64,000 nt of DNA. It comes from Streptomyces graminilatus (lineage in GTDB: Bacteria > Actinomycetota > Actinomycetes > Streptomycetales > Streptomycetaceae). Positions 18,005 through 58,143 of the stretch are shown here, piece after piece; the first letter of the stretch is position 1, and each line of letters opens with the position of its first letter. The translations under genes were made by a program, and so were the position numbers. A model generated the notes under the pieces. The model did not search any database. It saw only the letters and a program-made list of their open reading frames with translations, and was not told where the DNA came from. The DNA lies in contig NZ_LIQQ01000178.1 of the NCBI RefSeq assembly GCF_001418565.1, positions 1 to 64,000 on the forward strand, given 5' to 3'.

Positions 18005-18186
18005 GGATCCAGAGTAGACCGGGGGTGTCAATTTGGGCAGACGGTAGAGAAATTCAGCTACCGGATGAGACAGGTTTGCGCGCCACGGACCGCTGCCGCC
18101 GGACCCGGACCGCCGGGGGCACAGCGCCGGGCGTACACCTGCCGTCCGCCGGGCGCCCCACCCCGGCGGACTCGTGATCATGCCTC

Positions 18187-37233: not shown

Positions 37234-37471
37234 GGCGCCAATGCGGCATGCGCCGGATACGTCCGTATTCGTACACGCGGGAAGCGTGGCACACAGGCAA
37301 CCCATCCGAATGTACCGATTAATCCTATGCGTTGATAAACGCACGACTTGCCGCCCGAATTGCGGCTCCGCGCATCGCACTCGGGTAAAGCTCCCCCTCG
37401 GGTCCGGGACAGCCCGAACAGTCGAGGCAGGTCAAGGCAATTCAAGGCACGTCGACGCAAGGAGCACACCG

Positions 37472-40760: not shown

Positions 40761-40798
40761 ACAGCCATACCCGGCATCAGCGCCACCAGCCCCGCACG

Positions 40799-40897
40799 TC
40801 AGTGCACATGCCCACTAGCCGCAGCATCCTTCTTCACGGTGAGCGGCAGCAGCTTCTTCCCCGTGGGCCCGATCTGAATGCTGGTGTCCATCTGCGG
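40799..40897 (-). repeat. Intact displaced copy of the radical SAM 3' end (left attachment site)
   Basis: 99 bp, the same length as the working end at 56191-56289, with about 75 identities by hand count and no gap. On the minus strand it reads PQMDTSIQIGPTGKKLLPLT...SGHVH and stop. Most differences fall on third codon positions. The shared core TCCATCTGCGG is at 40887-40897. Just past it the sequence becomes element-specific, and TGTCCAT-N9-ATGGACA spans the junction, a symmetry expected at serine-integrase sites. Confidence 0.85.
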
Positions 40898-40939
40898 CCA
40901 TATGGACACAGGGTTAAAACCATCTCTACCCTTCCTGAC

Positions 40940-42553
40940 ATGGGCAGATACTCACGCAACCGAAGCGCAGCCGAGCAGAAGGCGTACGACGTCGAGGCAG
41001 AGTGGACCGCCGCCGACCTGGCCTTACTTGACGAGTTGAAGAGGTCTGAGGCGTTACTGCCTGACGACGCTCCCAGAGCGCTCTTATCCGTCCGGCTCTC
41101 CGTCCTGACAGACGACACCACCTCACCGGTACGCCAGGAACTCGACCTCCGCAGGCTGGCAAGGGAGAAGGGATGCCGGGTCGTCGGCGTCGCCAGCGAT
41201 CTGAACGTCAGCGCGACGAAGGTTCCCCCCTGGAAGCGCAAGCAGCTCGGCGACTGGCTCAACAACCGCGCGCCCGAGTTCGACGTCCTCATGTTCTGGA
41301 AGCTCGACCGGTTCGTCCGTCGGCTCTCGGACCTGGCCACCATGATCGACTGGTCGCTGAAGTACGAGAAGAACCTGATCTCCAAGAACGACAGCATCGA
41401 TCTGACCACCACGGCCGGGAAGATCATGGTCACCATCGTCGGTGGCATCGCGGAGATCGAGGCGGCGAACACCAGCACCCGGGTGGCAAGCCTCTGGGAC
41501 TACGCAAAGACCCAGGAAGACTGGCTGATCGGCAAACCGGCCTACGGCTACATGACGTCCGTGGACGAGAACGGGAAGATCACCCTCGTTCACGACCCCA
41601 TCGCACACCGCGCTTTGCACTGGGCGCGCAGGATGGCGATCCGTGGAGTGTCCGCCCGCCGCATGGTCATGGTCCTCGTTCGATCCGGACTGTGCGGCCC
41701 CAGCCTCACCGTGTCGACTCTGCTGCGCAGGCTCAGGAATCCCGCGCTCCTGGGCTACCGCGTCGAGGAGTTGAAGAACGGCGGGCAACGTCGGTCGAAG
41801 TTGCTCCTCGGCAATGACGGCAAGCCGATCAGAGTCGCCGAAGCCGTCTTCACCGAGGACGAGTTCGACAGCCTCGGTGCAGCACTCGACAAGCGCATGA
41901 AGAATCAGCCGCCCCGCCAGCAGGGCGGAGCCACCAAGTTCCTCGGTGTACTCATCTGCGCCGACTGCGACAGCAACATGATCGTCCAGGTGAACAGGAA
42001 CAACTTCGGGGTGTACGAGTATCTCCGTTGCCAGAAGTGCAAAAGCGGCGGACGCGGCGCACCCCACCCCATGGCCGTCTACGAACGGCTTGTCGCCGAC
42101 GTCCTCTCGATCCTCGGAGAGGAGCCGGTACAGACGCGGGAGTACGCCAAGGGGGCCGAGGCTCGCAAGGAAACCGAGCGGCTGGAAGGGTCCATCGCCT
42201 ACTACATGCGCGAGTTGGAGCCCGGAGGCCGGTACGCGAAGACGCGGTTCACCAAGGAGCAGGCCGAGAAGACCTTGGACAAGCTGATCGCCGACCTTGA
42301 GTCGATCGACCCCGAGACGACCAAGGACCGCTGGGTAAAGGTCCACAACGACAAGACCTTCCGGGACCGCTGGCAGGAGGGCGGCATGGAGGCCATGTCT
42401 GCGGACCTGCTTCGGGTCGGCGTGAAGTGCAAGATCACACGAACCAAGGTGAAGGGTGTCCGCGCCCCGCACATCCACATGAAGCTCATGATCCCCAAGG
42501 ACGTGCGAGACCGGCTGATACTCAAGGAAGACGACTTCGCGAAGGTCTTCTGA
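40940..42553 (+). CDS. int: Large serine recombinase (site-specific integrase)
   Basis: 537 residues from ATG 40940, 43 bp from the left core site. The resolvase domain has the catalytic Ser in SVRLSVLTDDTTSPVRQ (residue ~53) and DVLMFWKLDRFVRRLSDL. The recombinase domain follows (GKPAYGYMTS, ARRMAIRGVSARRMV, LRNPALLGYRV), and a zinc ribbon (ICADCDSNM, RCQKCKSGG) and coiled coil complete the large-serine-integrase layout. Codons 29, 39 and 49 are TTA, a codon read only by the bldA tRNA in Streptomyces. Long in-frame upstream sequence belongs to the MFS gene's other frame and is not part of it. It catalyses integration at the radical SAM gene end. Confidence 0.95.
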   Translation: MGRYSRNRSAAEQKAYDVEAEWTAADLALLDELKRSEALLPDDAPRALLSVRLSVLTDDTTSPVRQELDLRRLAREKGCRVVGVASDLNVSATKVPPWKRKQLGDWLNNRAPEFDVLMFWKLDRFVRRLSDLATMIDWSLKYEKNLISKNDSIDLTTTAGKIMVTIVGGIAEIEAANTSTRVASLWDYAKTQEDWLIGKPAYGYMTSVDENGKITLVHDPIAHRALHWARRMAIRGVSARRMVMVLVRSGLCGPSLTVSTLLRRLRNPALLGYRVEELKNGGQRRSKLLLGNDGKPIRVAEAVFTEDEFDSLGAALDKRMKNQPPRQQGGATKFLGVLICADCDSNMIVQVNRNNFGVYEYLRCQKCKSGGRGAPHPMAVYERLVADVLSILGEEPVQTREYAKGAEARKETERLEGSIAYYMRELEPGGRYAKTRFTKEQAEKTLDKLIADLESIDPETTKDRWVKVHNDKTFRDRWQEGGMEAMSADLLRVGVKCKITRTKVKGVRAPHIHMKLMIPKDVRDRLILKEDDFAKVF

Positions 42554-42618: not shown

Positions 42619-42786
42619 TCACTCGGACCACAACACCGGATCGAACGGCTCTTCCGTACCGTCCTCGCCTACGATCACGATTTCACTCTCGATCAGACGC
42701 GAAGCCCCATCGTCGCCAGACCGGGACACCGGCGGGCGCCGGGACTGCCGAGATTCACGTTCGGGCAGAGGAGTTATCGGCCCCAC
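42619..42786 (-). CDS. 55-residue protein downstream of Rep, candidate directionality factor
   Basis: GTG at 42786 overlaps the last 13 nt of rep, so it would be translationally coupled. The product is basic at first (ERESRQSRRPPVSRSG) and then LIESEIVIVGEDGTEEPFDP with the end VLWSE. No family recognised. Tyrosine-integrase AICEs have xis at this position; a serine integrase needs a different recombination directionality factor, and this is one of few unassigned small genes in the element. Purely positional argument. Confidence 0.5.
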   Translation of the reverse strand: MGPITPLPERESRQSRRPPVSRSGDDGASRLIESEIVIVGEDGTEEPFDPVLWSE

Positions 42787-44066
42787 TCCCCCTCTTGTCT
42801 CATCTCCACACCGAGCCTCCGAGACTCGGCAAGGTCGTCGGCGATTCCGGCGGCGATGAGTGCGGCGCCAGGGGTGTGACCGGAGCCGACGTAGCGCCAG
42901 GAGGCGTCGGTGGTCGTGTCGGGGATGGTGATGTGGCCGAGGTGGTGGGCGCGTTCGGCGCGGAGGGCCGCGTACGTCGTCGAGTAGGCGCGGGACTTGG
43001 TGAGGATGTGTCCTCGGTAGCCGAGGGTGTGGGCCCAGGTGCGGAGGCGGAGCGGCTCGTACTCGGGGAGGCCACCAAGGAGCCAGGCTGTACGCATCAG
43101 GGTGCGGACGTGGTCGGACACGTGGGCAGCGTCGATGTCCTGCCAGGAGGTGAGTCGGTAGTCGGTGCCGGCGCCTGTCTCGCTCGCGCCTTTGGTGACG
43201 TACTTGGCTACATACGCGGCCACCGCGTCGTCGTCGGCTCCGTCGGCGTCGGCGTGCAGGGGGCGGGCGTCGAGTTGGGTGCCCCAGCGGAGGGCGAGTT
43301 CGCCGATGGCGGGGCCGTAGGGGGTGCGGACCAGGACGCGTTGGGCGGATGCGCGTACGGCGTCGGTGAGTTGGTCGGTGGTGCCCCAGAGTGGGGGTTG
43401 GTCGTCGGGTCCGGCCGGGCCGTCGAGGCGGACCACCGCGTGCACGTGGACAGCAGCGCGCTTCTGGTATTCGGCGACGCGGGCGAAGGACAGTCGCGCG
43501 TGCTGCGAAAAGTGGGACTGGACGAGGCCTGCCGAAGAGGCGAGGTGGCGGCGTACGTCCCGGGTGAAGCGGTCCCACAGGATGCCCGCATGTGCGTGCC
43601 AGAGCACGTGGGCGGTGTAGTCGTAGCAGCCGGCGCACAAGGGCTGGCCGACGAGGAGAGCGTCCGGAGCGTGGACGACTCCGCAGCCGACGGGACGACC
43701 GTGCGCACAGGTGCCTCCAGCGCGACGAGGGCGGCAAGGGCCCGCCCCGGCACGGTGGACGGGTCCAAAGGAGGGCGCGGTGAGGGTGATGAAGAGGCGG
43801 GGGCGGTTGCGGATGGTGGTGGGGATGTTCTTGCCGCCGAGGAGGCCCGCGCGGACAAGGTGGTAGGTGTCGCCCGCGTGGAGTCGGGAGCAGGGGGCGC
43901 AGACACTCGCCCGCCGGTTGCGGCAGCGGACGAGGAGTCGTTCGCCGGGTTCGGTGCGGGTGTCGTAGTGGCGGAGGATCTCGCCGGTTACCGCGTCGAG
44001 AGTCGTGGTCGACCCGGACAGGTGGACGGGGTGGGCGCAGCCGCCGGTAGCGGTGATCTGCTCCAA
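42774..44066 (-). CDS. Replication initiator protein (RepSA-like); start codon uncertain
   Basis: 430 residues from TTG 44066, the first standard start in this frame. Coding sequence clearly continues upstream to about 44204 (TTITPEHITLADRRAVLDRA, then HPQFARWLEQI), but between 44299 and 44066 there is no ATG, GTG or TTG in frame; CTG 44174 or a mutated start at GTC 44204 are the options. Motifs include GGCAHPVHLSG, CRNRRASVCAPCS and the HVHAVVRLDG segment with metal-binding His residues seen in rolling-circle initiators. It should nick the origin and start replication of the excised circle. Confidence 0.82.
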   Translation of the reverse strand: MEQITATGGCAHPVHLSGSTTTLDAVTGEILRHYDTRTEPGERLLVRCRNRRASVCAPCSRLHAGDTYHLVRAGLLGGKNIPTTIRNRPRLFITLTAPSFGPVHRAGAGPCRPRRAGGTCAHGRPVGCGVVHAPDALLVGQPLCAGCYDYTAHVLWHAHAGILWDRFTRDVRRHLASSAGLVQSHFSQHARLSFARVAEYQKRAAVHVHAVVRLDGPAGPDDQPPLWGTTDQLTDAVRASAQRVLVRTPYGPAIGELALRWGTQLDARPLHADADGADDDAVAAYVAKYVTKGASETGAGTDYRLTSWQDIDAAHVSDHVRTLMRTAWLLGGLPEYEPLRLRTWAHTLGYRGHILTKSRAYSTTYAALRAERAHHLGHITIPDTTTDASWRYVGSGHTPGAALIAAGIADDLAESRRLGVEMRQEGEWGR

Positions 44067-44438: not shown

Positions 44439-44636
44439 CTAGAAGTGGGAGAAGCCGCTGAGGACCCAGGTGACGAAGCCGTTGATGGTGAGGCTGACGG
44501 GGGTCTGTCCGAGGTAGAGGCCGAACAGGGCGATGCAGACCGCTTCCCAGGCGCGGACGTCGCGGGCGCGGACGAGGAGGAAGGTGATGATCCCGAAGAC
44601 CACGACGAGGGACACGGCGGCACCTGTGCTGATCAT
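44439..44636 (-). CDS. Small membrane protein (Spd-like)
   Basis: 65 residues from ATG 44636, overlapping the traB stop by 4 nt. Two hydrophobic segments (VSLVVVFGIITFLLV and VCIALFGLYLG...) with a short basic loop. Position and size match spread (Spd) proteins that move element DNA along mycelial compartments after transfer. Assignment is by position and topology. Confidence 0.65.
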   Translation of the reverse strand: MISTGAAVSLVVVFGIITFLLVRARDVRAWEAVCIALFGLYLGQTPVSLTINGFVTWVLSGFSHF

Positions 44637-45937
44637 TGGGAGTCTCCTTCGAGGGCGGCGAGCGCGCGGGTGACGGTGGGCAGTTCGGGCACCAGGCCCG
44701 CGTGCTTACGGGTGACCGCTATGGCCTCTTGGGTGGGGGTGAGGTGGGAGCGGGCGCGGTTCCAGCCGCCATCCGGTCCGGTGCACACGGCCACGCCCTG
44801 TTCCTGAGCAGTGATCGACTGAGCGATGGCCACCGCGTCCTTGTTGAGGTCGCCGAGGATCATTTCTGCGGTGCCGGGGTCGTTGACCCGGTGGCAGATG
44901 CGTCCGCCGAGTTGTGCGCGCAGTGCGGTGACGCCGGGGCCGAGGTCGGAGCCGACGCGTTGCCCGGCGACGACGAGGTGGATGCCGAGGGCTGCGCCGA
45001 GCTGGGCGAGGCGGAGCAGGAGGGTGGAGCATTGTTCGGCTTCTGCTTTGCTCTCGCGTCTGCCGTCGGACAGGTACAGTTCCGCGATCTCGTCGACGAT
45101 CACGACGACGGGTACGGGCCGGAATCTGACGGGCAGTTCCCAGATGGATCGGGCCCCGGCCGTCCGGCAGACGCTCATCCGGTCCTGCATGTCGACCACC
45201 AGCGCGGCCAGCACCGCGACCGCCTCACGCCGACTCGTCGCCAGCGCACTGAGCCGCTCAGTAAACAAACCGAGTTCCATGCCGCCCTTGCAGTCGATCC
45301 CGACCAGGGCGACGGGCTGCGGGGCGAGTTGGGTGATCAGCCGGGCCAGCAGGGTGGACTTGCCCGACCGGGTGGCCCCGGCGATTAGCCAGTGCGGCAC
45401 CACCAGGAGATCCATCACCCACGCGCCGCCACTCTCCAACACCCCGATCAGTGCCGAGAGGAGTGCCGGCGGGGCAGCGGCCAGGCCGGGGCGTTGCAGT
45501 GGATCGGTGGCCGTTGCCGTCAGCAGCGCCAGCCCCCGTTCCGGTGAGGTGACCCGCACCGCATGGACCTTCCACGCATGCACGAGGGCATCGGCCGCCT
45601 TCAAGTAAATGGCCGGGGTCTGGCCCGCGTGCAGCCGCACCATCACGGTCAGCCCGGCACGCGTCGGACGAGGAAACGAGATCTTCGGTGCCACCGGCCG
45701 TAGCGGATCGCCCTTGACGACCAGGTCACCGAGGAGCCCGCGCGGCGGACGGCGGGACACGGCGAGGTCGGTGAGCATCGCGATCTTGCGCCAGGTGGAC
45801 ACCACCCGCCATGCAGTGGCCGGGTATCCGGCGAGGTACCAGTGCCAGACCGGGCGGTGACGCCGCAGCAGGTCACCGCCGCCCAGCACCCAGACGAGCA
45901 CCAACAGAGCGAGGGTGAGAGCGAGGATGCCGGTCAT
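44633..45937 (-). CDS. traB: TraB/TraSA-type FtsK-SpoIIIE DNA translocase
   Basis: 434 residues from ATG 45937. An N-terminal membrane helix (ILALTLALLVLVWVLGGG) is followed by the ATPase: Walker A GATRSGKST (residues 187-195), a KGGMELGLF segment and Walker B VVVIVDEIAEL (~residues 277-287). Single-protein conjugation of double-stranded DNA in Streptomyces depends on this hexameric pump, which recognises 8-bp repeats at a clt locus through a C-terminal winged helix (HLTPTQEAIAV region). It overlaps the genes on both sides, showing a tight operon. Confidence 0.93.
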   Translation of the reverse strand: MTGILALTLALLVLVWVLGGGDLLRRHRPVWHWYLAGYPATAWRVVSTWRKIAMLTDLAVSRRPPRGLLGDLVVKGDPLRPVAPKISFPRPTRAGLTVMVRLHAGQTPAIYLKAADALVHAWKVHAVRVTSPERGLALLTATATDPLQRPGLAAAPPALLSALIGVLESGGAWVMDLLVVPHWLIAGATRSGKSTLLARLITQLAPQPVALVGIDCKGGMELGLFTERLSALATSRREAVAVLAALVVDMQDRMSVCRTAGARSIWELPVRFRPVPVVVIVDEIAELYLSDGRRESKAEAEQCSTLLLRLAQLGAALGIHLVVAGQRVGSDLGPGVTALRAQLGGRICHRVNDPGTAEMILGDLNKDAVAIAQSITAQEQGVAVCTGPDGGWNRARSHLTPTQEAIAVTRKHAGLVPELPTVTRALAALEGDSQ

Positions 45938-46275
45938 CACGCACCACCGGCCTTTAAGGCGCCGGAGACGGGGGTGATGGCGTCGGCGCGGAAGCTGACG
46001 CCGTGCCGGTCGCCCATCGCCCACATGAACGCGGTCAGCCCGGTGACCTTGAGGATCATGCCTTCCTCGATGCCTTTGGGTTCGCCAGTGACGGCGATCT
46101 CGATAACGGAGATGCGCCGCCGGTCCTGCCTCACGGTGACGGCGACGGTGTAGACGGGGTTGCCGTCCCGGTCCTTCTTGACCTCCTGTGTCTCCTGGTT
46201 GCTGATCTTCGCTTCGGGGGCGATGGCGCACCGCAGTACGCCAAGCCGCCCGGTGTCCACGGGAATGGACTGCAT
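45937..46275 (-). CDS. Pra-like element regulatory protein
   Basis: 112 residues from ATG 46275 (MQSIPVDTGRLGVLRCAIAP). It continues with NQETQEVKKDRDGNPVY and a beta-rich body (VTVRQDRRRISVIEIAV, GMILKVTGLTAFMW). Proteins of this kind head tra-rep operons in Streptomyces elements and are often called Pra, the activator of replication, integration and excision in pSAM2. Its stop overlaps the traB start. Identification by pattern and position. Confidence 0.65.
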   Translation of the reverse strand: MQSIPVDTGRLGVLRCAIAPEAKISNQETQEVKKDRDGNPVYTVAVTVRQDRRRISVIEIAVTGEPKGIEEGMILKVTGLTAFMWAMGDRHGVSFRADAITPVSGALKAGGA

Positions 46276-46439: not shown

Positions 46440-47219
46440 ATGTCGGAGATCCAGCGCCCCGGAGCCCTCTACCAGCAGGTGGCCGCCGCCATCCGGGAAG
46501 CCATCCTGTCGGGCGAGTTCGAACCCGACTCCCTGCTTCCGTCCGAGGCCCAGCTCATGGCCCGCTACGGCGTATCCCGCCCCACCGTCCGCAACGCCAT
46601 CGCGGCCCTGCGAGCGGAAGGCCTGATCGACGTCCGCCACGGCAAAGGCAGCTACGTCCGCACCAGCGGCCGGCCCGCTCTCACCCTCGAACGCCGCATC
46701 ACCCGCACCGCCGACGGCACGTTCGTGATGCCCAGCGGCGACGTGTGGGACGAGGCCGAGAAGCCAAGTACCTACCGCACCCGCACCACGAAGGACACCG
46801 GCCGACTCCTCCAACTCGGCACGGAAGAAGCCCTGTTCGGATGCGATCGTCTCCTGATCGACCCCAGCTCCGGGACGCGCGCCATGCACCGCACGCTGAT
46901 CCCCTTCACGACCGCCGAAGGCATCGCGGTGCTTGCCGAGGAGCCGTCCACGCGACCGGCGGCGATCTACGGGGTGCTCACCCAGTACGGGCACAAGCTG
47001 ACGTGGTCCGAGACTGTCCGCGCCCGCATGCCGCTGCCCGACGAGCGGGCCACGCTGCGCCTGCCGGATGCGACCCCGGTCCTGCACCTGGCCCGTGTCA
47101 CGCACGGCACCGACGGCCGCCCGCTGATCCTCGAAGAGCTGCGCACCGGGGCGGACCGTGCCGAACTCGCCTACCGGATCACCGCCGACAAGCAGCCCAC
47201 CCGACGCACCCGCGCCTGA
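46440..47219 (+). CDS. GntR-family repressor with UTRA domain (KorSA-like)
   Basis: 259 residues from ATG 46440. The winged helix is at residues ~10-75 (ALYQQVAAAIREAILSGEF, SRPTVRNAIAALRAEGLIDV, GKGSYVR), and a UTRA effector domain fills the rest (STRPAAIYGVLTQYGHKLTW, VLHLARVTHGTDGRPL). In pSAM2-type elements this protein keeps transfer and replication silent until mating or damage. It diverges from the tra operon and two hairpins follow it. Confidence 0.88.
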   Translation: MSEIQRPGALYQQVAAAIREAILSGEFEPDSLLPSEAQLMARYGVSRPTVRNAIAALRAEGLIDVRHGKGSYVRTSGRPALTLERRITRTADGTFVMPSGDVWDEAEKPSTYRTRTTKDTGRLLQLGTEEALFGCDRLLIDPSSGTRAMHRTLIPFTTAEGIAVLAEEPSTRPAAIYGVLTQYGHKLTWSETVRARMPLPDERATLRLPDATPVLHLARVTHGTDGRPLILEELRTGADRAELAYRITADKQPTRRTRA

Positions 47220-48995: not shown

Positions 48996-50369
48996 ATGAG
49001 CCGAGAGCCGAACGCACAGTTGATCGCCGTCATGGGCGAGGCGCAAGTTTCGAACAAGGGTCTCGCGAAGCGGATACAGGACACCGCTGCCCAGCGAGGA
49101 GTGAGTCTCGGGACGACGCACGTCGCCGTGCAGCGATGGCGGGACGGCTCCGGCATCCAGCCGCAGACAGCGGCGATCATGGCGGACGCACTCTCCGCCA
49201 AGCTGGGCCGCCGCATCACACCGGGCGATCTCGGTTTCTTCGATCACTCGCGTCCGAGCACCCCGCAGCACATCGGCTACCCCGGCACGGTCCCCGACGT
49301 GCTGTCGATGCTGGCAGGACTGGCCGACCAGCGCGCCGAAGCCCCCGCATCCGACCAACTGACGATTGCGGAAGCCGACCTCAACTCCGCTGTCCTGTCA
49401 TGGATGATCGCGCGCCCCGACGGCATCCAGGCCGACAAGCCCGCCGGCCAGCGCATCGGCATGCGGGACGTACGCGCGATCAGAGACGCCGCCAGCATGT
49501 TCATGCAACTCGACTTCAAGTACGGCGGAGGCCACGGCCACAAAGCGCTGCGCCACTACTTCCGCCACGAAGTCCTGCCCCTCCTGGACGCCAGCTACAG
49601 CGAAAGGGTGGGCACGGAGTTATTCGGCGCCGCCGCCGAGGTCTCCCAGTTGCTCGCGTGGACCGCGTACGACACCGGAAACCACCGGCTCGCCCACCGC
49701 TACCTGACCTCCACACTCCGCCTTTCACAGGTCATCGACGACCGCATGTTCGGCGCCCGCATCCTCGGCAACCTCAGCCACCAGGCCAACTACCTCGGCA
49801 ACCACGCCCAGGCGATCCGGCTTTCGCGTGCGGCAGTCGAGGGCGCCAAGGGCCGGGCCACACCGCGAGCGATGGCGCTGAACTCGGCGATGGAGGCCCG
49901 CGCGCTGTCCAACGCAGGCGACCCGATCGGCGCCGGACGCGCGATGAACGAAGCGGAACGCTACTTCGAACGCGCGGACACCGCCGAAGACCCCGCGTGG
50001 CTCGGCTACTTCGACTCCGCGGAACTCATGGGCGAAATCTGTCACTGCTTCCGCGACCTCAGGCTGCGCCGGGAGTCCGTGACAGCAGCGCAACGCGCGG
50101 TCGACGACACCGACCCGAAGTACGCCCGCACCCTCGGTTTCTGCCGCATGGTGCTGGCCCAAAGCCACCTCCTGAACGGTGACTTGGAAGCCGCCGTCAC
50201 AACAGCCAGCCTGGCCGTGGACGGCGGCGACACCCTCCAGTCCAACCGCTTCCAGCGCTACGTGACCGACTTCCAGGCCGAGGTGAGCACCCACGCGACG
50301 AACCCGGTCGTGGCCGCCTTCAACAACCAGGTCCGCGACGCACTTGCCCGCCTGGAGGACGACGAGTAG
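48996..50369 (+). CDS. XRE-like transcriptional regulator with TPR-like region
   Basis: 457 residues from ATG 48996. Residues ~1-80 resemble a helix-turn-helix (NKGLAKRIQDTAAQRGVSLG, VQRWRDGSGIQPQTAAIMADAL). The rest is an all-helical repeat region (RLAHRYLTSTLRLSQVID, MALNSAMEARALSNAGDPIGAGRAM) like the TPR regulators common in Streptomyces. It is separated from the divergent ATP-binding gene by palindromic sites. Probably senses a peptide or small ligand through the repeats; target unknown. Confidence 0.82.
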   Translation: MSREPNAQLIAVMGEAQVSNKGLAKRIQDTAAQRGVSLGTTHVAVQRWRDGSGIQPQTAAIMADALSAKLGRRITPGDLGFFDHSRPSTPQHIGYPGTVPDVLSMLAGLADQRAEAPASDQLTIAEADLNSAVLSWMIARPDGIQADKPAGQRIGMRDVRAIRDAASMFMQLDFKYGGGHGHKALRHYFRHEVLPLLDASYSERVGTELFGAAAEVSQLLAWTAYDTGNHRLAHRYLTSTLRLSQVIDDRMFGARILGNLSHQANYLGNHAQAIRLSRAAVEGAKGRATPRAMALNSAMEARALSNAGDPIGAGRAMNEAERYFERADTAEDPAWLGYFDSAELMGEICHCFRDLRLRRESVTAAQRAVDDTDPKYARTLGFCRMVLAQSHLLNGDLEAAVTTASLAVDGGDTLQSNRFQRYVTDFQAEVSTHATNPVVAAFNNQVRDALARLEDDE

Positions 50370-50375
50370 CAGTCC

Positions 50376-51290
50376 TTACCAGGGCCGCCAGTCCCGAGGC
50401 GCATCGTCATTGCGCAGCCCGGCGATGCGCCGGCGATATTCGGCCGCCGTCCCCTCGTCCTCCTGCACGTTCTGCATGAGCCACGTCGTCATACCGAACT
50501 CCTGCAGGCCACGCAGCGTCCCGTACCCGTGCCAGTCGTACAGATCCCGCCCGTACGCGGCCACGAAATCGGCGTACTGCTCATCGGTCTGCCACCCAAG
50601 ACTGTGATGCTCCACCGACGTGACCATCAGATCCCACTCGGGATGATCGAAACAGAAGGCCTCGAAGTCGATCAGGATCACCTTCCCCTGATCGTCCACC
50701 ATGAGGTTCTGCACGTGGGCATCACCGTGCACCGGACCCTTGGGAGTCTCGAACCGCAACTCGTCGTACCTGTCGCGCAGTTCGTGCCACCGCTTACGCA
50801 GGAAGGCCTTGTCATCCTCAGAGACCACGGCCCGGTCCATCCGCAGTTCCTGCTTGTCGAAGGGATCGAACGAAGGCAGCTCAAGACCGTCCGGCACGGT
50901 CAGGGAGTGCAGATCCCGCAGGACGCCCCCCAACTCCCCATAGGTCGCCTTCCGATCACCCTCAACGATCAGATGCCAGAACGTCACCGGATGACCGTCC
51001 ACCAAGAGCGGCTGCTCAAGATCCTCAACGATCCGAGCCGCAGAGAACCCCTCCGTCTCCAGCCACCGCGAGACAGCCACTTCCGTACGCGCCGTCGGCA
51101 GCCACTCCTCCCCCCGTGCCACACGCACGATCACCGGAACAGAAGCCAGCCGGAACAACGCGTTCTCTCCGAGCCGGATCAACTCCGCCCCACTGCCATC
51201 GAGTCCAGCAGCCTGGCACGCGGCATCTAACACCCGCGCGGCCCCCACAGACGTGAACCCCTCTTCCGACCGAGCAGCGTCAACCGCCAT
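50376..51290 (-). CDS. Aminoglycoside phosphotransferase-family (APH) kinase-like protein
   Basis: 304 residues from ATG 51290 (MAVDAARSEEG), where a GGGGAG site precedes; the longer frame starts in other sequence. Kinase-fold motifs: VIVRVARG (ATP lysine equivalent region), VHGDAHVQNLMV (catalytic HGD) and VILIDFEAFCFDHPEWDL (metal-binding Asp). Members phosphorylate antibiotics or metabolites such as homoserine or choline. No resistance context except the MFS gene in the neighbouring interval. Convergent with the XRE/TPR gene, 6 bp apart. Confidence 0.87.
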   Translation of the reverse strand: MAVDAARSEEGFTSVGAARVLDAACQAAGLDGSGAELIRLGENALFRLASVPVIVRVARGEEWLPTARTEVAVSRWLETEGFSAARIVEDLEQPLLVDGHPVTFWHLIVEGDRKATYGELGGVLRDLHSLTVPDGLELPSFDPFDKQELRMDRAVVSEDDKAFLRKRWHELRDRYDELRFETPKGPVHGDAHVQNLMVDDQGKVILIDFEAFCFDHPEWDLMVTSVEHHSLGWQTDEQYADFVAAYGRDLYDWHGYGTLRGLQEFGMTTWLMQNVQEDEGTAAEYRRRIAGLRNDDAPRDWRPW

Positions 51291-51612
51291 GCCCGTACCA
51301 GCTCCCCTAGTCGCGCGATCAACCAGCACACGCCCACGGGCGACCAACCCGGCGCGCGCCAGACACAAAGACGACCGTACCGAGGAGTGACGGGCAAGGA
51401 CGAGCCCAGGGCCGAGGGTGGTCAACAGCTACAACGCCAAAAAAGGTCAGACACCAGTTGAGGAGCTACGGTCCGAGTCTGACGGGATGTCGGCAAGGCT
51501 CTGCAGACAGTCACGATGTCCGATATCCTGTCGCACCTACCTCTTGGGGCACTGCTTCAACTTGGGACTTCGGGAGCCTCTGGATCCGACAGCGGAGCGA
51601 TTAGAGCGGTAC
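51291..51612. other. Spacer with compositional break ahead of the defence genes
   Basis: 322 bp between divergent genes. GC falls from about 70% to near 50% across this spacer. An open frame reaches upstream from the DUF4297 gene to 51418, but its residues (Cys/Arg-rich, NSYNAKKG) look like noncoding translation. The defence promoter should lie here; I cannot name boxes. Confidence 0.5.
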
Positions 51613-52749
51613 ATGACAGAAATTTCCGGACCCCGGGATGGGGGCTATCATGCCCTAAAGGGTTTCGTCTTTCAATTCGATGCATCTCTGCTCAGGATTT
51701 ACAATGAGCCCGGCAGGGAATTCCAAATTGAAGGCGAGCAGGACCTCAGTGTTGAAGATTTCTTCATTCAAATAAAGCGCCGCAACCAAAAATTTTCACT
51801 CGGCGCTATCTCTGACGCCATCAAGCAAATGATCCAGCAGTTTTCCCGGAATCGGGAGAAGAGGTTCCTTCTCTACTGCCACTTCCAGGACAAAACTCCT
51901 GGGACTAATCTGACGCTAGATGTCGAGGAACTCAAAAGGATCACCTCAAGAGACGCGGAAGAATTCTCGGAAGATCTAGTAGAAGAATTCTCCAAATGTC
52001 TTACCATCCAATTTTCCGTTGACTATAAGGAACAGTTCGAAGATGTCATAAACCTCCTAACAAAAGAGCACTACCTTCATACCAAAGCAGAGGCTGTCGC
52101 TTGTCACGCCATCATTCAAAAATATTTGCTCGACCTGGTCGTTAATAATCCGCCCGAAGCTCGCAGGGTTTCAGGGAACCAGCTTCGCGAGGTTGTCGAC
52201 TCCGCCCGTACATCGATCTTCCATTCTGGATATCAAAATCTCTTCGGTAATGAAAAGTACCTAGGACTTCTCAAGTCCGAGATCACACAGCGTGGAATCA
52301 ACCTACCGAAGCGGGAGCGTCTATTCGTCGTAGAATGCACGTCGCAACTAAATGCACACGACGCCGTGGATATTGCAGTAGCTGTACGCAATCGATTCCA
52401 CAGGAAGCATAACGCTTTTTCTCCGTACCTCGTCCTTCGAGGGCTAGATGATCTATCCAACGTTAAGCGCATGCTCATTGACGCAGAAGTTAGAATATTT
52501 GACGGCACTTACTTCAATGGCGATAAGTTGCGCTTGAAGGACCTAACGAATCCGAAAATAAACCGTTCTGTCGAGCTAAAGATTTCAGGAGAGGAGAACA
52601 TACCTGGGATTATAGAAATGATCGACTTTGCCGACATTCATGAATTCTTTTTGTCGTCGCCTTCGCGGCTTATTCCTGACTCTATCGACGCCAGGGTGTA
52701 TAGGCGATTCATCCAGCGCCCACAGGACGTAGCAAGAGTTCTTAGATAG
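51613..52749 (+). CDS. DUF4297/Cap4-like nuclease of a HerA-associated defence system
   Basis: 378 residues from ATG 51613 (MTEISGPRDGGYHALKGF), chosen because the family usually starts this way. The nuclease core is at residues 38-60: E40-G-E-Q-D44, then VEDFFIQIKRR with Q53-x-K55, the PD-(D/E)xK pattern of DUF4297 (QIEGEQDLS, FFIQIK). The following 320 residues are helical with no second nuclease motif, and end RVYRRFIQRPQDVARVLR. GC is about 50%, unlike flanks. It is 8 nt upstream of the HerA gene. In known pairs the nuclease and HerA form a large complex that degrades DNA on phage infection. Confidence 0.82.
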   Translation: MTEISGPRDGGYHALKGFVFQFDASLLRIYNEPGREFQIEGEQDLSVEDFFIQIKRRNQKFSLGAISDAIKQMIQQFSRNREKRFLLYCHFQDKTPGTNLTLDVEELKRITSRDAEEFSEDLVEEFSKCLTIQFSVDYKEQFEDVINLLTKEHYLHTKAEAVACHAIIQKYLLDLVVNNPPEARRVSGNQLREVVDSARTSIFHSGYQNLFGNEKYLGLLKSEITQRGINLPKRERLFVVECTSQLNAHDAVDIAVAVRNRFHRKHNAFSPYLVLRGLDDLSNVKRMLIDAEVRIFDGTYFNGDKLRLKDLTNPKINRSVELKISGEENIPGIIEMIDFADIHEFFLSSPSRLIPDSIDARVYRRFIQRPQDVARVLR

Positions 52750-52757
52750 GAGAAATC

Positions 52758-54395
52758 ATGCCCGGTGCCGAAGTAGTGGCCGTATACCCAAACAAGATTA
52801 AGATTTCCGTGCATGAAATTGCAGACTTGGGCCAAGGCGTGCCCGTGGAGGTGGGATCCTATCTACGCATCTATGACAGCAACAAGTCGTCCATTATTGC
52901 CATCATCGAGAACTACTCGATTGAGGTACGCGGGCCAGAAACGTCCGATGGGGAAAGGGAAAAAGTATACCTCATCGAAGCCGTCCCTCTCGGTTTTATC
53001 GGCGAAGACGGGAATTTCCAGCGCGGAGGCGGAGGCATTGCAATCCCGCCCAAAGAGGTGACAGTAGCAAGCCACGACCAGATTCAGAAAATCTACGATG
53101 CGCTCGGAAACGACATTCGAAGATTCCACTTTGCCCAACTATCGCAAGACGTCAAGGTAGCCGTTCCTGTGGACGGCGATAAATTCTTCAACAGACATAT
53201 CGCTATTGTAGGATCCACGGGTTCCGGTAAGTCTCATGCCATGGCAAGAATTATCCAGTCTGCCACGGAAATCAGAGATCGCGGGCGCGAAGAGTACTCT
53301 TTGAACAATTCGCACATCGTGATTTTTGACATTCATTCGGAGTACCTTTCAGCATTTCCTGACGCCAACTATCTCAGTGTGGATTCTTTAGTCCTACCCT
53401 ATTGGCTCCTCAACTCAGAAGAGCTACAGGATCTTTTTATCGAAAGCGTGGAGGAGCAGTCGCATAATCAAGTCGCGACACTCAAGCGTGGCATCACAGA
53501 CAATCGAAAAAAACATTACAGGGGTTCGGACGAGAAACGCGATCTAATCCACTACGACTCGCCCCTTTTCTTTGATCTTGGCGAGGTGATTGAGTACATT
53601 CAAACCAGGAACGATGAGATGGTGACCGGGTCTAGCGGAAAGCCTGTGAACGGACCACTCAAAGGAAAGCTAGTTAATTTCCTAACCCGCCTGGAAAATA
53701 AGTACACAGACAGACGACTTGACTTCCTGCTTGGCGAGAAAGTTAAGAATCTCACGCTGGAGGATGTCCTTCGGCAATTCACCGGTTACCGCAAGGACAG
53801 TCCATCGAATGTGACTATTGTTGATCTAAGCGGGGTCCCATTTGAGGTGCTAAGCATTAGCGTCTCCTTGATCTCTCGCCTACTCTTTGATTACGCCTTT
53901 TATTACAAGAAGGCTCACGATGAAGGTAGAGCGGAGACACCCATTCTCGTCGTGTACGAGGAGGCTCACAAATATGTACCCCGAAGTGACCTCTCACGCT
54001 TCAGTGCTTCGCGTGGCGCCATTGAACGTATTGCTAAAGAGGGACGAAAATACGGAATCACAGCCGCCATTGTGAGCCAGAGACCAGCCGAGATCTCGGA
54101 AACTATCTTCTCCCAGTGCAGCAACTTTCTGGCTATGCGCTTGACTAATCCAGAGGATCAGCGTTACGTGCGCAGGCTGATTCCTGATTCACTTGGCCCT
54201 CTTACAGATTCCCTTCCCATGCTGCCATCGGGCGAGGCACTTTTGCTGGGGGACGCCGCTGTAATGCCATCTGTAGTGAAGTTGAAAGAGGCAGACCCTG
54301 CACCATCTTCGAGTGACGTTTGCTACATGCAGGAGTGGATCCGTCCATGGCACGACGTGCTCTTCGGTCCCCTTCTGGAGGACTGGGAAAAGTGA
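52758..54395 (+). CDS. HerA-type hexameric ATPase/helicase (DUF87) of the defence pair
   Basis: 545 residues from ATG 52758, with TAGGAG 6 nt upstream. A HAS-barrel-type N-terminus (residues ~1-100) precedes the ATPase: Walker A GSTGSGKSHAMA (152-163), IVIFDIHSEY, Walker B ILVVYEEAHKY (~396-406), then the sensor region GRKYGITAAIVSQRPAEIS and the C-terminal LPSGEALLLGDA. This is a bacterial HerA of defence operons, not the archaeal NurA partner. Codon 211 is TTA (53388-53390). GC is about 50% by spot counts. Partner of the DUF4297 nuclease just upstream. Confidence 0.92.
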   Translation: MPGAEVVAVYPNKIKISVHEIADLGQGVPVEVGSYLRIYDSNKSSIIAIIENYSIEVRGPETSDGEREKVYLIEAVPLGFIGEDGNFQRGGGGIAIPPKEVTVASHDQIQKIYDALGNDIRRFHFAQLSQDVKVAVPVDGDKFFNRHIAIVGSTGSGKSHAMARIIQSATEIRDRGREEYSLNNSHIVIFDIHSEYLSAFPDANYLSVDSLVLPYWLLNSEELQDLFIESVEEQSHNQVATLKRGITDNRKKHYRGSDEKRDLIHYDSPLFFDLGEVIEYIQTRNDEMVTGSSGKPVNGPLKGKLVNFLTRLENKYTDRRLDFLLGEKVKNLTLEDVLRQFTGYRKDSPSNVTIVDLSGVPFEVLSISVSLISRLLFDYAFYYKKAHDEGRAETPILVVYEEAHKYVPRSDLSRFSASRGAIERIAKEGRKYGITAAIVSQRPAEISETIFSQCSNFLAMRLTNPEDQRYVRRLIPDSLGPLTDSLPMLPSGEALLLGDAAVMPSVVKLKEADPAPSSSDVCYMQEWIRPWHDVLFGPLLEDWEK

Positions 54396-54460
54396 GCCGT
54401 GAGCTCTATGAATAGACTCAACGCGGTCATCAGGATGCGTCCCGCCCCTAAAATCAAGTG

Positions 54461-54492
54461 CGTCCTAAAAGCAGCGGCACCGCTTCAGGACG
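54461..54492. terminator. Convergent hairpin after herA
   Basis: CGTCCT/AGGACG with an inner AAGC/GCTT helix, between herA and the convergent gene. Likely ends both. Confidence 0.55.
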
Positions 54493-54495
54493 GGT

Positions 54496-55056
54496 TCATA
54501 TCTGCCGCAGGCACGCCGTGCACTCCGATTGCTGCTGAGCCTCGCCATCAACTACTTCTCCGCAGTACCCGCCGCACGTATCGCATACGAGGACATGTGA
54601 TTCCTCTCCAATCAAGGAGACCAAGTAGGCCGGGTTCTTGACCACCTCGACGGAGTACGTTGTCGACTCCTTCGGCAATGGCTTGGCTTGCGCCCGCCCG
54701 GCAAGCGCCGCCTCCAAGGCCCTCATAAGCTTCTTGTCTACCTTCAGTAGGGCCAGACCCAGTTCTGGCCCCAGACCCGCCGGATCGAAGCGAAGCCAGC
54801 CACCGGCAAACAACTTCTTCCGCAGCTCAAGAACCTGCGGCTCCGCCAAACGGTGAGACGTCGCTTTCCCCGAAGCCTCCCCAATCAGGATGAACCGCGA
54901 TTCGGTAACAGCCACCCAAAAGTTCGGACTGCTGTCCACGAACGTGGGAGTCAGCGTGTTGATGTCCGTCGCCGCGCCAAACGCCCTAACCGTCTCCTCT
55001 GCGTAAAGCGTGCGGTCGACTATCGCGCGAGCCATGTATGCATTCATGCCAGACAT
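54496..55056 (-). CDS. Hypothetical protein with C-terminal zinc ribbon, next to the defence pair
   Basis: 186 residues from ATG 55056 (MSGMNAYMARA), which has an AGAGGG site; an ATG at 55071 is also in frame. A beta-rich front half (NFWVAVTESRFILIGEASG), a helical middle (VDKKLMRALEAALAGRAQ) and a Cys end, CDTCGGYCGEVVDGE...CTACLRQI, typical of a zinc ribbon. GC is intermediate between the defence genes and the host. No family recognised. It is convergent with herA, so it may be cargo of a separate origin or an accessory gene of the system. Confidence 0.65.
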   Translation of the reverse strand: MSGMNAYMARAIVDRTLYAEETVRAFGAATDINTLTPTFVDSSPNFWVAVTESRFILIGEASGKATSHRLAEPQVLELRKKLFAGGWLRFDPAGLGPELGLALLKVDKKLMRALEAALAGRAQAKPLPKESTTYSVEVVKNPAYLVSLIGEESHVLVCDTCGGYCGEVVDGEAQQQSECTACLRQI

Positions 55057-55320
55057 GCATGCCCTCTTCATCTGTGATGGGTCTGTGCAGGGAGATGCAC
55101 TCTATCGCTGCAAGTGACCGCCTCGGGAGGTCCTATCGTCCATCGCCAACGCAATGTCCATCCGTCATCGGCTCGGGCGGGCACCCGTCGATCCCCCAAA
55201 CCCGGATTCCACCGCGCATGATCGCCTCGACGGTCTTACTCACCCGGGCCGCGAGGTTTGGTGACAGCCATTGATCCACTTCAACGAGGCACTGTCAGAG
55301 GCGTACGGCAACCTGGCGCC

Positions 55321-55953
55321 ATGAACAGATCGAACGACGCGGCATCCACACGCCGCATGCAGCCGGAGCTCAACTGGGTTGCGTCCATGGGTGGCCCGCT
55401 CATCGTCATACCGGTATCGGCGTTGCATGAGTGGAGCGGCTGCACGGAAGCCGGAATGGTCATCGGCGACACCGATGACCCGGACGACTACGACCGCGCG
55501 TGCGCGGTAGAAGACCTCGCCGCTGTGATCGACGTGGGCCCAGCCGGCGCGCAAGCCCTTGTGCTGGGCGACGAGCCGGCCACGACCTGCTATCTGCCCG
55601 AACGAAGGGCCTTCGTGCGCTGGCTCGCCGCAGACTCCGACGCAGAGCTCCTCGTGGCCTCCGAAAGGCTACTGGACGACCCCACCACCGCGTGGGAGGC
55701 AGCGGGAGTATGGGAAACGGACGGCCCGGCGATGCTCATGGACTCCGCCGAGGCCGGAGCGGATCTCGATCGGCCGTACCCCGACCGCCCCGAGCTGCCA
55801 GAACAAGCCCCCGTGGCTGTACCGGCAGGCCGCTGGAACGTCCGGGCGGTCCACGTGACCAACGAGTTTCCCTGTGTCGGCGTGGTCCAGCTCACTCCGG
55901 AACGAGGCGCCGACGTCTCCGCGTCAACGGCGGACAGCTCACCCCGTCCATAG
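55321..55953 (+). CDS. Imm21-family immunity protein, orphan
   Basis: 210 residues from ATG 55321. LNWVASMGGPLIVIPVSAL, followed by WSGCTEAGM...DYDRACAVEDL and ALVLGDEPATTCYLP, matches the Imm21 pattern of polymorphic-toxin immunity proteins. No toxin gene is visible on either side. It is the last sizeable gene before the right core site, a usual place for lone immunity genes carried by mobile elements. The Imm21 name is from memory of the pattern. The 249 bp before it hold only a 48-codon minus-strand frame that I do not support. Confidence 0.7.
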   Translation: MNRSNDAASTRRMQPELNWVASMGGPLIVIPVSALHEWSGCTEAGMVIGDTDDPDDYDRACAVEDLAAVIDVGPAGAQALVLGDEPATTCYLPERRAFVRWLAADSDAELLVASERLLDDPTTAWEAAGVWETDGPAMLMDSAEAGADLDRPYPDRPELPEQAPVAVPAGRWNVRAVHVTNEFPCVGVVQLTPERGADVSASTADSSPRP

Positions 55954-56000: not shown

Positions 56001-56189
56001 TCAGACCCACTCCACCTCAGAGTGGACGGTCGAAGAGGCCACAGGCGACGGCAGCGGCGTTCTTGGGGTATCCCGCACAACCCCCTGCCGCCTGCTCTGA
56101 GCGCCGAGCACCCTCAGGACGGCAGCGGCCTCTTCCTCGCCACCGCCGTCCTCCAGAGCCTCCACGATGCGCCGCAACGCCTCACTCAC
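56001..56189 (-). CDS. Possible small helical protein directly after the radical SAM gene
   Basis: GTG at 56189 starts 1 nt after the radical SAM stop codon and would be translationally coupled. 62 codons: MSEALRRIVEALEDGGGEEEAAAVLRVLG forms a plausible helix, then Arg/Pro-rich residues. It lies in the element's right end, so it would be supplied by the element. Could be chance. Confidence 0.35.
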   Translation of the reverse strand: MSEALRRIVEALEDGGGEEEAAAVLRVLGAQSRRQGVVRDTPRTPLPSPVASSTVHSEVEWV

Positions 56190-56190
56190 G

Positions 56191-56289
56191 TCAGTGCACG
56201 TGTCCGCTGGTCGGAGCGTCCTTCTTGACCGTCAGCGGCAGCAACTTCTTACCGGTCGGGCCTACTTGTACCCAAGTATCCATCTGCGG
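56191..56289 (-). repeat. Working copy of the radical SAM 3' end (right attachment site)
   Basis: Encodes the current C-terminus CPQMDTWVQVGPTGKKLLPLT...SGHVH and the stop at 56191-56193. Core TCCATCTGCGG at 56279-56289. About 76% identical to the copy at 40799-40897, differing mostly at silent positions. Everything left of the core here came with the element. Confidence 0.85.
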
Positions 56290-58143
56290 ACACACCCCGC
56301 AGTCGAAGCACGGCGTCCAGCGGCAGTCCTCGACCTCTGTCTCGTCGAGGGAGTCCTGCCAGTCCTCCCACAGCCAGTCCTTGTCGAGGCCCGAGTCGAG
56401 GTGGTCCCACGGCAGGACCTCCTCGTACGTGCGTTCGCGTGTCGTGTACCAGGCGACGTCGACGCCGACGTCGGGCAGTGTCTTCTCCGCGCAGGCCATC
56501 CAGCGGTCGTAGGAGAAGTACTCGCGCCAGCCGTCGAACCGTCCGCCGTCCTCGTAGACCGCGCGGATGACCGCGCCGAGGCGGCGGTCGCCGCGGGAGA
56601 GGAGGCCCTCGACGATGCCGGGCTTGCCGTCGTGGTAGCGGAAGCCGATCGAGCGGCCGTACTTCTTGTCGCCGCGGATCTTGTCCCGGAGCTTCGTCAG
56701 GCGGGCGTCCGTCTCCTCGGCGGAGAGCTGCGGGGCCCACTGGAAGGGGGTGTGCGGCTTGGGCACGAAGCCGCCGATCGAGACCGTGCAGCGGATGTCG
56801 TTCTGGCCGGAGACCCTGCGGCCCTCGGCGATCACGTTCATCGCCATGTCGGCGATCTGGAGGACGTCGTCGTCGGTCTCCGTGGGCAGCCCGCACATGA
56901 AGTACAGCTTCACCTGGCGCCAGCCGTTGCCGTACGCCGTGGAGACCGTCCGGATCAGGTCCTCTTCCGAGACCATCTTGTTGATGACCTTGCGCATGCG
57001 TTCCGAGCCGCCCTCGGGGGCGAACGTCAGGCCCGACCTGCGGCCGTTCCTGGTCAGCTCGTTGGCGAGGTCCACGTTGAAGGCGTCCACGCGGGTGGAG
57101 GGGAGCGACAGGCCGATCTTGTCCTCGGTGTAGCGGTCCGCGAGGCCCTTCGCGATGTCGCCGATCTCCGTGTGGTCCGCCGAGGACAGGGAGAGCAGGC
57201 CGACCTCCTCGAAGCCCGTCGCCTTCAGGCCCTTCTCCACCATCTCACCGATGCCCGTGATCGAACGCTCCCGCACCGGGCGCGTGATCATGCCGGCCTG
57301 GCAGAAGCGGCAGCCACGCGTGCAGCCGCGGAAGATCTCGACCGACATGCGCTCGTGGACGGTCTCCGCGAGCGGGACCAGGGGCTGCTTGGGGTAGGGC
57401 CACTCGTCGAGGTCCATGACGGTGTGCTTCGACACCCGCCACGGAACGCCCGACTTGTTGGGTACGACGCGCGCGATACGGCCGTCCGGCAGGTACTCCA
57501 CGTCGTAGAACGCCGGGATGTACACGCTGCCCGTCTTCGCCAGGCGGAACAGGACCTCCTCGCGTCCACCGGGGCGGCCCTCCGCCTTCCAGGCGCGGAT
57601 GATCTCCGTCATGTCGAGGACGGCCTGCTCGCCGTCGCCGATGATCACCGCGTCGACGAAGTCCGCGATCGGTTCCGGGTTGAAGGCCGCGTGGCCGCCC
57701 GCCAGCACGATCGGGTCGTCGACCGTACGGTCCCTGGACTCCAGCGGGATGCCCGCCAGGTCAAGCGCCGTCAGCATGTTCGTGTAGCCCAGCTCGGTGG
57801 AGAAGGACAGCCCGAACACGTCGAAGGCCCGCAGGGGCCGGTGCCCGTCCACCGTGAACTGGGGGACGCCGTGCTCCCGCATCAGCGCCTCAAGGTCGGG
57901 CCAGACGCTGTACGTACGCTCGGCGAGGACACCCTCACGTTCGTTCAGTACCTCGTACAGGATCATGACGCCCTGGTTGGGCAGTCCGACCTCGTACGCG
58001 TCCGGGTACATGAGCGCCCAGCGGACGTCGCAACTCCCCCAGTCCTTGACGGTGGAGTTCAGTTCGCCGCCCACGTACTGGATCGGCTTCTGCACATGCG
58101 GGAGCAGAGCTTCGAGCTGCGGGAAAACCGACTCGACAGACAT
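56191..58143 (-). CDS. TIGR03960 family B12-binding/radical SAM protein; host gene of the integration site
   Basis: 650 residues from ATG 58143. A B12-binding-like N-terminal domain (NQGVMILYEVLNE region) precedes the radical SAM core with the cluster motif RGCTRGCRFCQAG (C-x3-C-x2-C). Then SLSSADHTEIGDIAKGL and TFAPEGGSERMRKVINK complete the TIM barrel. A C-terminal Cys-rich segment follows (CRWTPCFDCGVCPQMD). The last ~30 residues come from the integrated element. Its usual companion TIGR03936 gene lies 21.4 kb away. Probable RNA-modification role by family; substrate unproven. Confidence 0.93.
   Translation of the reverse strand: MSVESVFPQLEALLPHVQKPIQYVGGELNSTVKDWGSCDVRWALMYPDAYEVGLPNQGVMILYEVLNEREGVLAERTYSVWPDLEALMREHGVPQFTVDGHRPLRAFDVFGLSFSTELGYTNMLTALDLAGIPLESRDRTVDDPIVLAGGHAAFNPEPIADFVDAVIIGDGEQAVLDMTEIIRAWKAEGRPGGREEVLFRLAKTGSVYIPAFYDVEYLPDGRIARVVPNKSGVPWRVSKHTVMDLDEWPYPKQPLVPLAETVHERMSVEIFRGCTRGCRFCQAGMITRPVRERSITGIGEMVEKGLKATGFEEVGLLSLSSADHTEIGDIAKGLADRYTEDKIGLSLPSTRVDAFNVDLANELTRNGRRSGLTFAPEGGSERMRKVINKMVSEEDLIRTVSTAYGNGWRQVKLYFMCGLPTETDDDVLQIADMAMNVIAEGRRVSGQNDIRCTVSIGGFVPKPHTPFQWAPQLSAEETDARLTKLRDKIRGDKKYGRSIGFRYHDGKPGIVEGLLSRGDRRLGAVIRAVYEDGGRFDGWREYFSYDRWMACAEKTLPDVGVDVAWYTTRERTYEEVLPWDHLDSGLDKDWLWEDWQDSLDETEVEDCRWTPCFDCGVCPQMDTWVQVGPTGKKLLPLTVKKDAPTSGHVH

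Follow-up and report, generated by a model that had tools for sequence, protein, structure and literature searches.

A divergent HerA-DUF4297-type gene pair in the cargo slot of a Streptomyces integrative and conjugative element

Results

The gene pair and its composition

The DNA analysed here, called the window, comprises positions 1 to 64,000 of contig NZ_LIQQ01000178.1 of Streptomyces graminilatus (assembly GCF_001418565.1). Two adjoining genes in it encode a DUF4297-type nuclease and a HerA ATPase. The pair lies inside a 15.4-kb actinomycete integrative and conjugative element (AICE), in a slot that holds other cargo in related elements.

51613..52749, + strand: DUF4297-type nuclease gene, 378 amino acids (aa), DGG (type B) form
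52758..54395, + strand: HerA ATPase gene, 545 aa, with Walker A motif GSTGSGKS

The stop codon of the nuclease gene and the start of the HerA gene were 8 nt apart on a common strand. Both reading frames were intact, and AGGAG provided a good ribosome site 5' of HerA. The motifs QIEGEQD...FFIQIK, GSTGSGKS and LVVYEEAH were all found in the pair. GC content was 0.47 in the nuclease gene and 0.51 in the HerA gene, against 0.70 in window positions 1-40000; all six 500-base bins of 51500-54499 fell between 0.47 and 0.54, and the other bins of 40-64 kb between 0.61 and 0.75. An earlier note on this DNA, made from the sequence alone, had described such a pair, 8 nt apart in one direction and with about 50% GC in DNA of about 70%, and this description was accurate. 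In the 9.6-Mb host genome no second full HerA was found at E<=0.001, the sole other match being partial and weak (E=3e-5).

Identity of the two proteins

The HerA protein matched the Pfam HerA central domain (E=3e-31), the PADLOC HerA model (E=5e-222) and PDB entry 8xau (E=3e-169). The nuclease matched PADLOC DUF4297 (E=4e-30) and PDB entries 8xav (E=1e-8) and 8ziq (E=5e-5). The two PADLOC values therefore exclude chance. Structure prediction was applied to the nuclease alone, with an AlphaFold model built from 41 sequences (the window nuclease, P0001, and 40 partner proteins of HerA loci); it reached a pLDDT of 89.1 and a pTM of 0.74 and showed a DUF4297-type fold with two domains.

Residues about 10-208, N-terminal: modelled Cap4-like PD-(D/E)xK domain with E40, D44, Q53 and K55
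Residues about 211-378, C-terminal: modelled mixed alpha/beta domain

Without exception, the top 20 Foldseek matches of the model were entries of HerA-DUF4297 complexes or of DUF4297 alone. The C-terminal domain superposed on DUF4297 chain 8xaw_Q with a root-mean-square deviation (rmsd) of 2.3 A over 161 residues. Whole-chain rmsd against solved chains was large (12-18 A), which we attribute to a different placement of the two nuclease domains. The N-terminal domain resembled the nucleases of Cap4, Avs3, Hachiman and Lamassu LmuA (Z about 7-11). These systems carry other sensor or partner domains. The C-terminus had been taken in the earlier note for a long helical stretch and possibly a distinct effector-coupling domain; the model shows neither, and the mixed alpha/beta domain has the known DUF4297 C-terminal fold, by which the E. 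coli nuclease docks on HerA (PMC11291478).

The Escherichia coli HerA-DUF4297 system (PDB 8xau-8xay; An et al. 2024, PMC11291478) is alike in its gene pair, in the catalytic residues of its Cap4-like nuclease and in the fold of the C-terminal domain. Catalytic D40/Q53/K55 of E. coli, mutation of which is reported to abolish defence (PMC11291478), correspond to D44/Q53/K55 here, and these residues were invariant, together with E40, in all 41 aligned sequences. HerA residues K158, E401/E402 and R430/K431 aligned with the E. coli Walker A lysine K157, acidic pair E426/E427 and R-finger residues R455/K456. The C-terminal hook stretch aligned, at the level of sequence, to the end of the E. coli chain; its W527, W531 and W543 were invariant in five sequences of the genus, and similar tails occurred in most aligned rows, though not in L071 (loci are numbered L, genomes G and contigs C). 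The window HerA is 26 residues shorter than the 571-residue E. coli chain, mostly at E. coli 285-321. The absence of this insertion was considered as a special trait and rejected, as its length varied in partner types A and B alike (see below). E. coli K287, a DNA contact and not a defining residue, fell in an unaligned stretch.

Other solved systems were compared likewise. The HerA-DUF systems of PDB 8ziq-8zit and 9c1m-9c5x matched the nuclease model in fold (Z 14.8-21) and the window HerA in phmmer searches, although identity to the window nuclease was low (14-21%). In the SIR2-HerA complexes (PDB 8wiv-8wof) the HerA motor is related (E=4e-45), but the effector is SIR2 and not a nuclease (PDB titles 8wld, 8woc).

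Several observations weigh against placing the pair in the HerA-DUF4297 class. No Pfam family, DUF4297 included, matched the nuclease at E<=1. The nuclease scored 131.6 bits with NCBIfam NF042945 (curated cut-off 300) and HerA 737.3 bits with the anti-phage model NF042944 (cut-off 850), and because both scores lie under the cut-offs the pair is not filed under these names. The nuclease, of DGG type, shares about 20% identity with the solved E. coli chains. The DNA contact R284 of E. coli HerA, not a defining residue, is replaced by M288. In the open-licence full texts searched on HerA-DUF4297 systems, no activity test of a type-B pair was found. The class assignment proposed in the earlier note nevertheless stands, with DUF4297 and HerA recognised by PADLOC and HerA also by Pfam: judged by PADLOC, PDB and predicted fold, though not by Pfam, the nuclease belongs to the HerA-DUF4297 class.

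Partner types and joint inheritance of HerA and nuclease

HerA loci were collected from species genomes by an alignment-based scan that found 225 relatives, of which the best 80 were kept; a scan of genome contigs with a single sequence instead of the alignment returned no relative. An upstream partner open reading frame (ORF) with an E..D..QxK motif was present at 72 of the 80 loci, and among the remaining eight were loci on short contigs, with start-codon effects or, in one stretch, with unknown bases. Co-occurrence with HerA in other genomes, which the earlier note had called for, was thus found. By their N-terminal motif the partners at the best 80 loci fell into two types, with 11 loci belonging to neither.

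Type A partner (51 loci): T[IL]xGY form, mostly 395-413 aa
Type B partner (18 loci): DGGYxAIKGF form, mostly 371-390 aa; includes the window nuclease

Spacing from the catalytic D to QxK was four residues shorter in type B than in type A. A HerA tree of 80 rows (quick search, midpoint root; L089, L069 and L104 left out; the window, L008 and L011 added) contained a branch, with support of 99 in the Shimodaira-Hasegawa-like approximate likelihood-ratio test (SH-aLRT), that held all 51 type-A rows, six untyped rows and no type-B row. The nine actinobacterial rows, two of them identical, formed one set on a long branch (SH-aLRT 100), and the closest to it were Bacillales type B (support 90). Scores with NF042945 were 127-198 bits for type-B proteins (6/6 under the cut-off) and 410-550 bits for type-A proteins (4/4 over it). 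The type-B proteins tested thus escape the NCBI name though synteny and fold place them in the same system.

HerA and nuclease identities were correlated (Mantel r 0.92, none of 999 permutations as high) across 72 loci, 11 of 83 having been dropped as partial, masked or near-duplicate rows; the pairs compared are non-independent. The nuclease was the less conserved protein in all 2556 of these non-independent pairs. Between the window and L008, the nearest copy, identity was 94% for HerA and 76% for the nuclease. Nonsynonymous divergence (dN) was 0.034 and 0.141, and its ratio to synonymous divergence (dN/dS) 0.018 and 0.090, respectively, by simple NG86 counts with synonymous sites near saturation. 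These values indicate purifying selection on both genes, the nuclease protein changing about four times faster.

Counting the window, 5 of the 392 genus genomes searched had a nuclease relative (E<=0.001). The other four copies all had HerA adjoining and lay in the same element family beside an APH-like gene. L008 had the same radical-SAM target gene and pair orientation as the window. In L009, L010 and L011 the pair was inverted relative to the APH-like gene, and the fetched 20 kb held no radical-SAM gene. L066, L067, L070 and L071 carried the pair without that APH-like gene in the fetched flanks, which were short for L067. The two orientations relative to the APH-like gene imply that the pair either entered the slot on at least two occasions or was inverted there. 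Across the phylum, 396 sampled genomes yielded, besides the window, a single short and weak nuclease match. No nuclease relative occurred among 50,697 phage records, and none was reached through HerA in viral contigs (recognised by pattern); seven of 72,556 plasmid records held a distant one. In L011 (8722-8833) the nuclease frame had no ATG, GTG or TTG before the conserved start, and a CTG nine bases past GGAGGGG is a possible start.

The host element and its attachment site

The pair lay between two direct repeats that bound the following element.

40795..40900: left attachment repeat, displaced 3' end of the radical-SAM gene, with CCATCTGCGG at 40888-40897
40919..42553, + strand: serine-type integrase (Resolvase, Zn_ribbon_recom); the coordinates are those of the stretch searched
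42774..44066, - strand: RepSA replication initiator of pSAM2 type (PF20199, E=3e-145)
44633..45988, - strand: FtsK/SpoIIIE-type transfer protein (TraB-like)
46440..47219, + strand: GntR-UTRA regulator of the element
48996..50369, + strand: conserved 457-aa backbone protein, putative regulator, with a weak TPR match under the Pfam cut-off
50376..51425, - strand: APH-like kinase gene bordering the cargo slot, used as anchor
56187..56292: right attachment repeat, radical-SAM gene 3' end, apparently supplied by the element, with CCATCTGCGG at 56280-56289
56191..58143, - strand: host radical-SAM gene with the element integrated in its 3' end

The repeats were 106 nt each, 76% identical and 15392 apart. 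The left one resembled the usual host 3' end, whereas the right one, at the end of the working gene, differed. Both contained CCATCTGCGG, beyond which the left copy diverged from the gene sequence. We infer recombination in or beside CCATCTGCGG, with a new gene end supplied by the element. With its RepSA-type initiator, FtsK-type transfer gene, GntR regulator, site-specific recombinase and direct repeats, the element is by sequence an AICE, as the earlier note had placed it. Streptomyces AICEs described in PMC9513070 are alike in RepSA, FtsK/TraB-like protein, GntR regulator and variable cargo; the window element differs from these and from the AICE-borne islands of PMC11706625, as described there, in its serine integrase and in the radical-SAM 3' end as target.

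A long match to the radical-SAM gene was present in all but one of 41 genomes (40, counting that of the window); G001, 79% complete, had only a short one. Extra copies of the gene's 3' end were seen on its own contig in three genomes: three copies in G011 (C4 450104-453868), one in G024 (C56 55669-55793) and one in G003 (C13 13155-13225). These would fit repeated integration at this target.

Other genes accompany the pair. Between the module and the right repeat lay an Imm21 immunity-protein gene (55258-55953, + strand; Pfam E=9e-54). The gene at 54496-55071 (- strand) encodes a 191-aa protein that contains CxxC pairs and matched no Pfam family at E<=0.01; a relative 85% identical was found in the L042 stretch (17669-18241), so this gene occurs with another element of the family. 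Outside the element, an ORF with a long collagen-like GPTGPQG repeat was located at 36992-38353 (+ strand).

Cargo slot between the APH-like gene and the attachment site

A search with the APH-like protein at E<=1e-80 gave 27 matches in 26 of 246 genomes of the genus. The slot survey comprised 25 additional stretches, the window and L011, and in 18 of the 27 stretches the transfer gene was identified. Large cargo lay between the APH-like gene and the host in 14 of the 18 elements. In L047, L055, L056 and L059 the slot contained only apparent host genes, as judged by GC and sequence without a family search; that of L056 was empty, 384 bases separating the APH and radical-SAM matches. The HerA-nuclease pair occupied two of the 27 stretches (the window and L011).

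L041: NACHT protein with a weak PDC-M54A match
L042: Gabija GajA and GajB
L043: OLD-like ATPase
L044: candidate PDC-S39
L045: IetA and a DUF6414 protein
L046, 11458-17275: caspase-like/VMAP-C protein, MoxR-type ATPase and kinase-DUF742 protein in a row
L048: radical-SAM protein with a weak viperin match
L049: NB-ARC/TPR protein matching a generic TPR model
L050: trypsin with sub-threshold STAND matches; no PADLOC match
L051: type I restriction-modification (R-M) system
L052, 6039-9107: HD-CE and HSP90-type ATPase; no PADLOC match; short stretch with the transfer gene outside view
L053: NACHT protein; no PADLOC match
L060, 11737-14784: RNase III-like, dsRNA-binding and HATPase domains; no PADLOC match

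In a PADLOC scan at E<=1e-5 of 20 slot proteins from 13 loci, 14 proteins from nine loci had matches; those of L041, L044, L048 and L049 speak weakly for a defence role. A PADLOC-family protein was thus present in 11 of 18 elements, the window among them, L011 being counted through its HerA (67% identical to that of the window) without a PADLOC scan of its own, and in 13 of 18 when L050 and L053, of NACHT/STAND type and one of them sub-threshold, are included. As a control, 10 hand-picked ORFs among the 12 largest called host ORFs of the window outside the element gave no PADLOC match. Because large size and low GC were the usual grounds on which slot proteins were hand-picked, and because the control is small, these counts give an indication and not a measured enrichment. 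They indicate that the shared slot beside the APH-like gene often holds defence-type genes in sister elements. The L046 trio is a candidate ternary conflict system, and the large slot proteins of L052 and L060 are candidates for systems as yet unnamed.

GC content and origin of the cargo

The earlier note had regarded the pair as acquired as a unit and of foreign composition. Acquisition as a unit is supported by the correlated identities and by the finding of the pair both in the AICE slot, in either orientation, and in further contexts. A recent foreign origin deduced from GC did not hold. GC of the pair was 47-54% in all 10 actinobacterial copies examined. Between the window and L008 pairs, the proportion of synonymous differences (pS) was 0.66-0.69 and GC at third codon positions (GC3) was 0.53-0.57 in both. 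Recent import from a low-GC phylum was therefore rejected, as all actinobacterial copies examined are mid-GC, the actinobacterial HerA rows form one set on the tree, and the window and L008 pairs have near-saturated synonymous sites at unchanged GC3. Replacement by recombination with other mid-GC copies may have contributed. Synonymous divergence (dS) of the module is not comparable with that of the backbone, because a GC3 of 0.78-0.94 in backbone and host genes compresses dS.

Low GC3 extended to other cargo. It was 0.44-0.64 in 14 of 15 slot cargo loci counted, while a backbone gene of the respective element had 0.80-0.91. The type I R-M locus stood apart, with host-like values for methyltransferase (0.89) and restriction gene (0.90) and 0.70 for the specificity gene. 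The 10 pair copies and the 14 cargo loci thus show low GC to be a lasting feature of the module and of most of the slot cargo that was counted. AT-richness as a general trait of suicidal systems was not supported: elsewhere in the genus, type I methyltransferases had GC3 of 0.76-0.96 (23 matches, out of 24, after L188, a cut-off locus, was dropped), and GajA-family matches, found in 5 of 150 genomes at E<=1e-60, had GC3 of 0.86-0.89 (5/5). These GajA matches were further from the model (314-372 bits) than the slot GajA (831 bits). Four of the five GajA-family matches, L176-L179, contained one in-frame TAG, with GC3 near 0.88.

Discussion

We consider it probable that the pair, carried by the AICE as defence cargo, belongs to the HerA-DUF4297 class as type B and encodes a HerA-driven, double-stranded DNA (dsDNA)-degrading abortive-infection complex. 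In E. coli, six HerA and 12 nuclease subunits form a complex; on assembly, dsDNA cutting and ATP hydrolysis are switched on and infected cells die (PMC11291478, PMC12198126). By homology, HerA would form a hexamer, and its N-terminal domains would bind nuclease molecules, arranged in a double layer, at their C-terminal domains. This assembly would pair the Cap4-like nuclease domains, and HerA would then hydrolyse ATP and feed dsDNA into them. Phage infection would set off the complex; phage and host dsDNA would be cut, and the cell would die before phage release. The E. coli system acts against phages, and its trigger too is described as unknown in PMC11291478.

The module might instead defend the element against rival mobile DNA, killing or clearing cells that receive competing conjugative elements or plasmids, with phage not the main target. 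It does sit on a conjugative element, the target gene 3' end seems to be a site of repeated integration in some relatives (extra copies in G003, G011 and G024), and the E. coli complex is reported to cut without preference for phage DNA (PMC11291478). Nonetheless the homologous E. coli system is anti-phage (PMC11291478), the slot is shared with other known anti-phage systems, and the pair also occurs at loci without this APH-like gene in the fetched flanks. We regard this explanation as unlikely.

That the module is decaying cargo without function seems very unlikely. In one Streptomyces population about half of the AICE cargo genes were under 150 aa, the threshold for probable pseudogenes in PMC9513070; here the frames are intact, the catalytic residues are kept and dN/dS is low in both genes. 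Processing of DNA ends for repair or for transfer of the element itself, in the manner of HerA-NurA, is the least probable explanation, since the repair HerA models of NCBIfam score the window HerA weakly (116.6 and 103.1 bits) and far below the anti-phage model NF042944, the partner has a DUF4297 fold, and the pair is found in so few of the anchor-set stretches.

Restriction-modification and AIPR abortive-infection genes are on record as AICE cargo, and dinuclease genes are on record in AICEs and near phage-defence systems (PMC9513070, PMC11706625). The shared defence slot of the element family is the more unusual result and is new here; in the open-licence full texts searched on AICEs as defence carriers, a slot beside an APH-like gene is not described in the parts consulted. 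Lsr2-like proteins are described as silencing AT-rich xenogeneic DNA in actinobacteria (PMC7002338), and such silencing of AT-rich cargo would be a way to keep a toxic complex in check. We tentatively raise, as a rather doubtful idea, that this AICE family is an immune-system shuttle with a dedicated exchange slot at the attachment site, its cargo kept AT-rich by selection, possibly so that Lsr2-type silencing restrains suicidal systems until infection.

A survey of actinobacterial defence systems used low GC as an indicator of horizontal transfer and, as described in PMC10482375, limited its mobile-element analysis to plasmids and prophages, so that AICEs would have gone uncounted. The saturation of synonymous sites seen here, with GC3 unchanged, casts doubt on low GC as proof that a transfer was recent. 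The pair extends a structurally solved defence class to the divergent type B. Searches for new immune systems could start from the slot next to the APH-like gene in this AICE family, where several large genes have no PADLOC match. If the idea of selected AT-richness were true, the low GC of Streptomyces defence genes would be partly regulatory and no mark of recent import.

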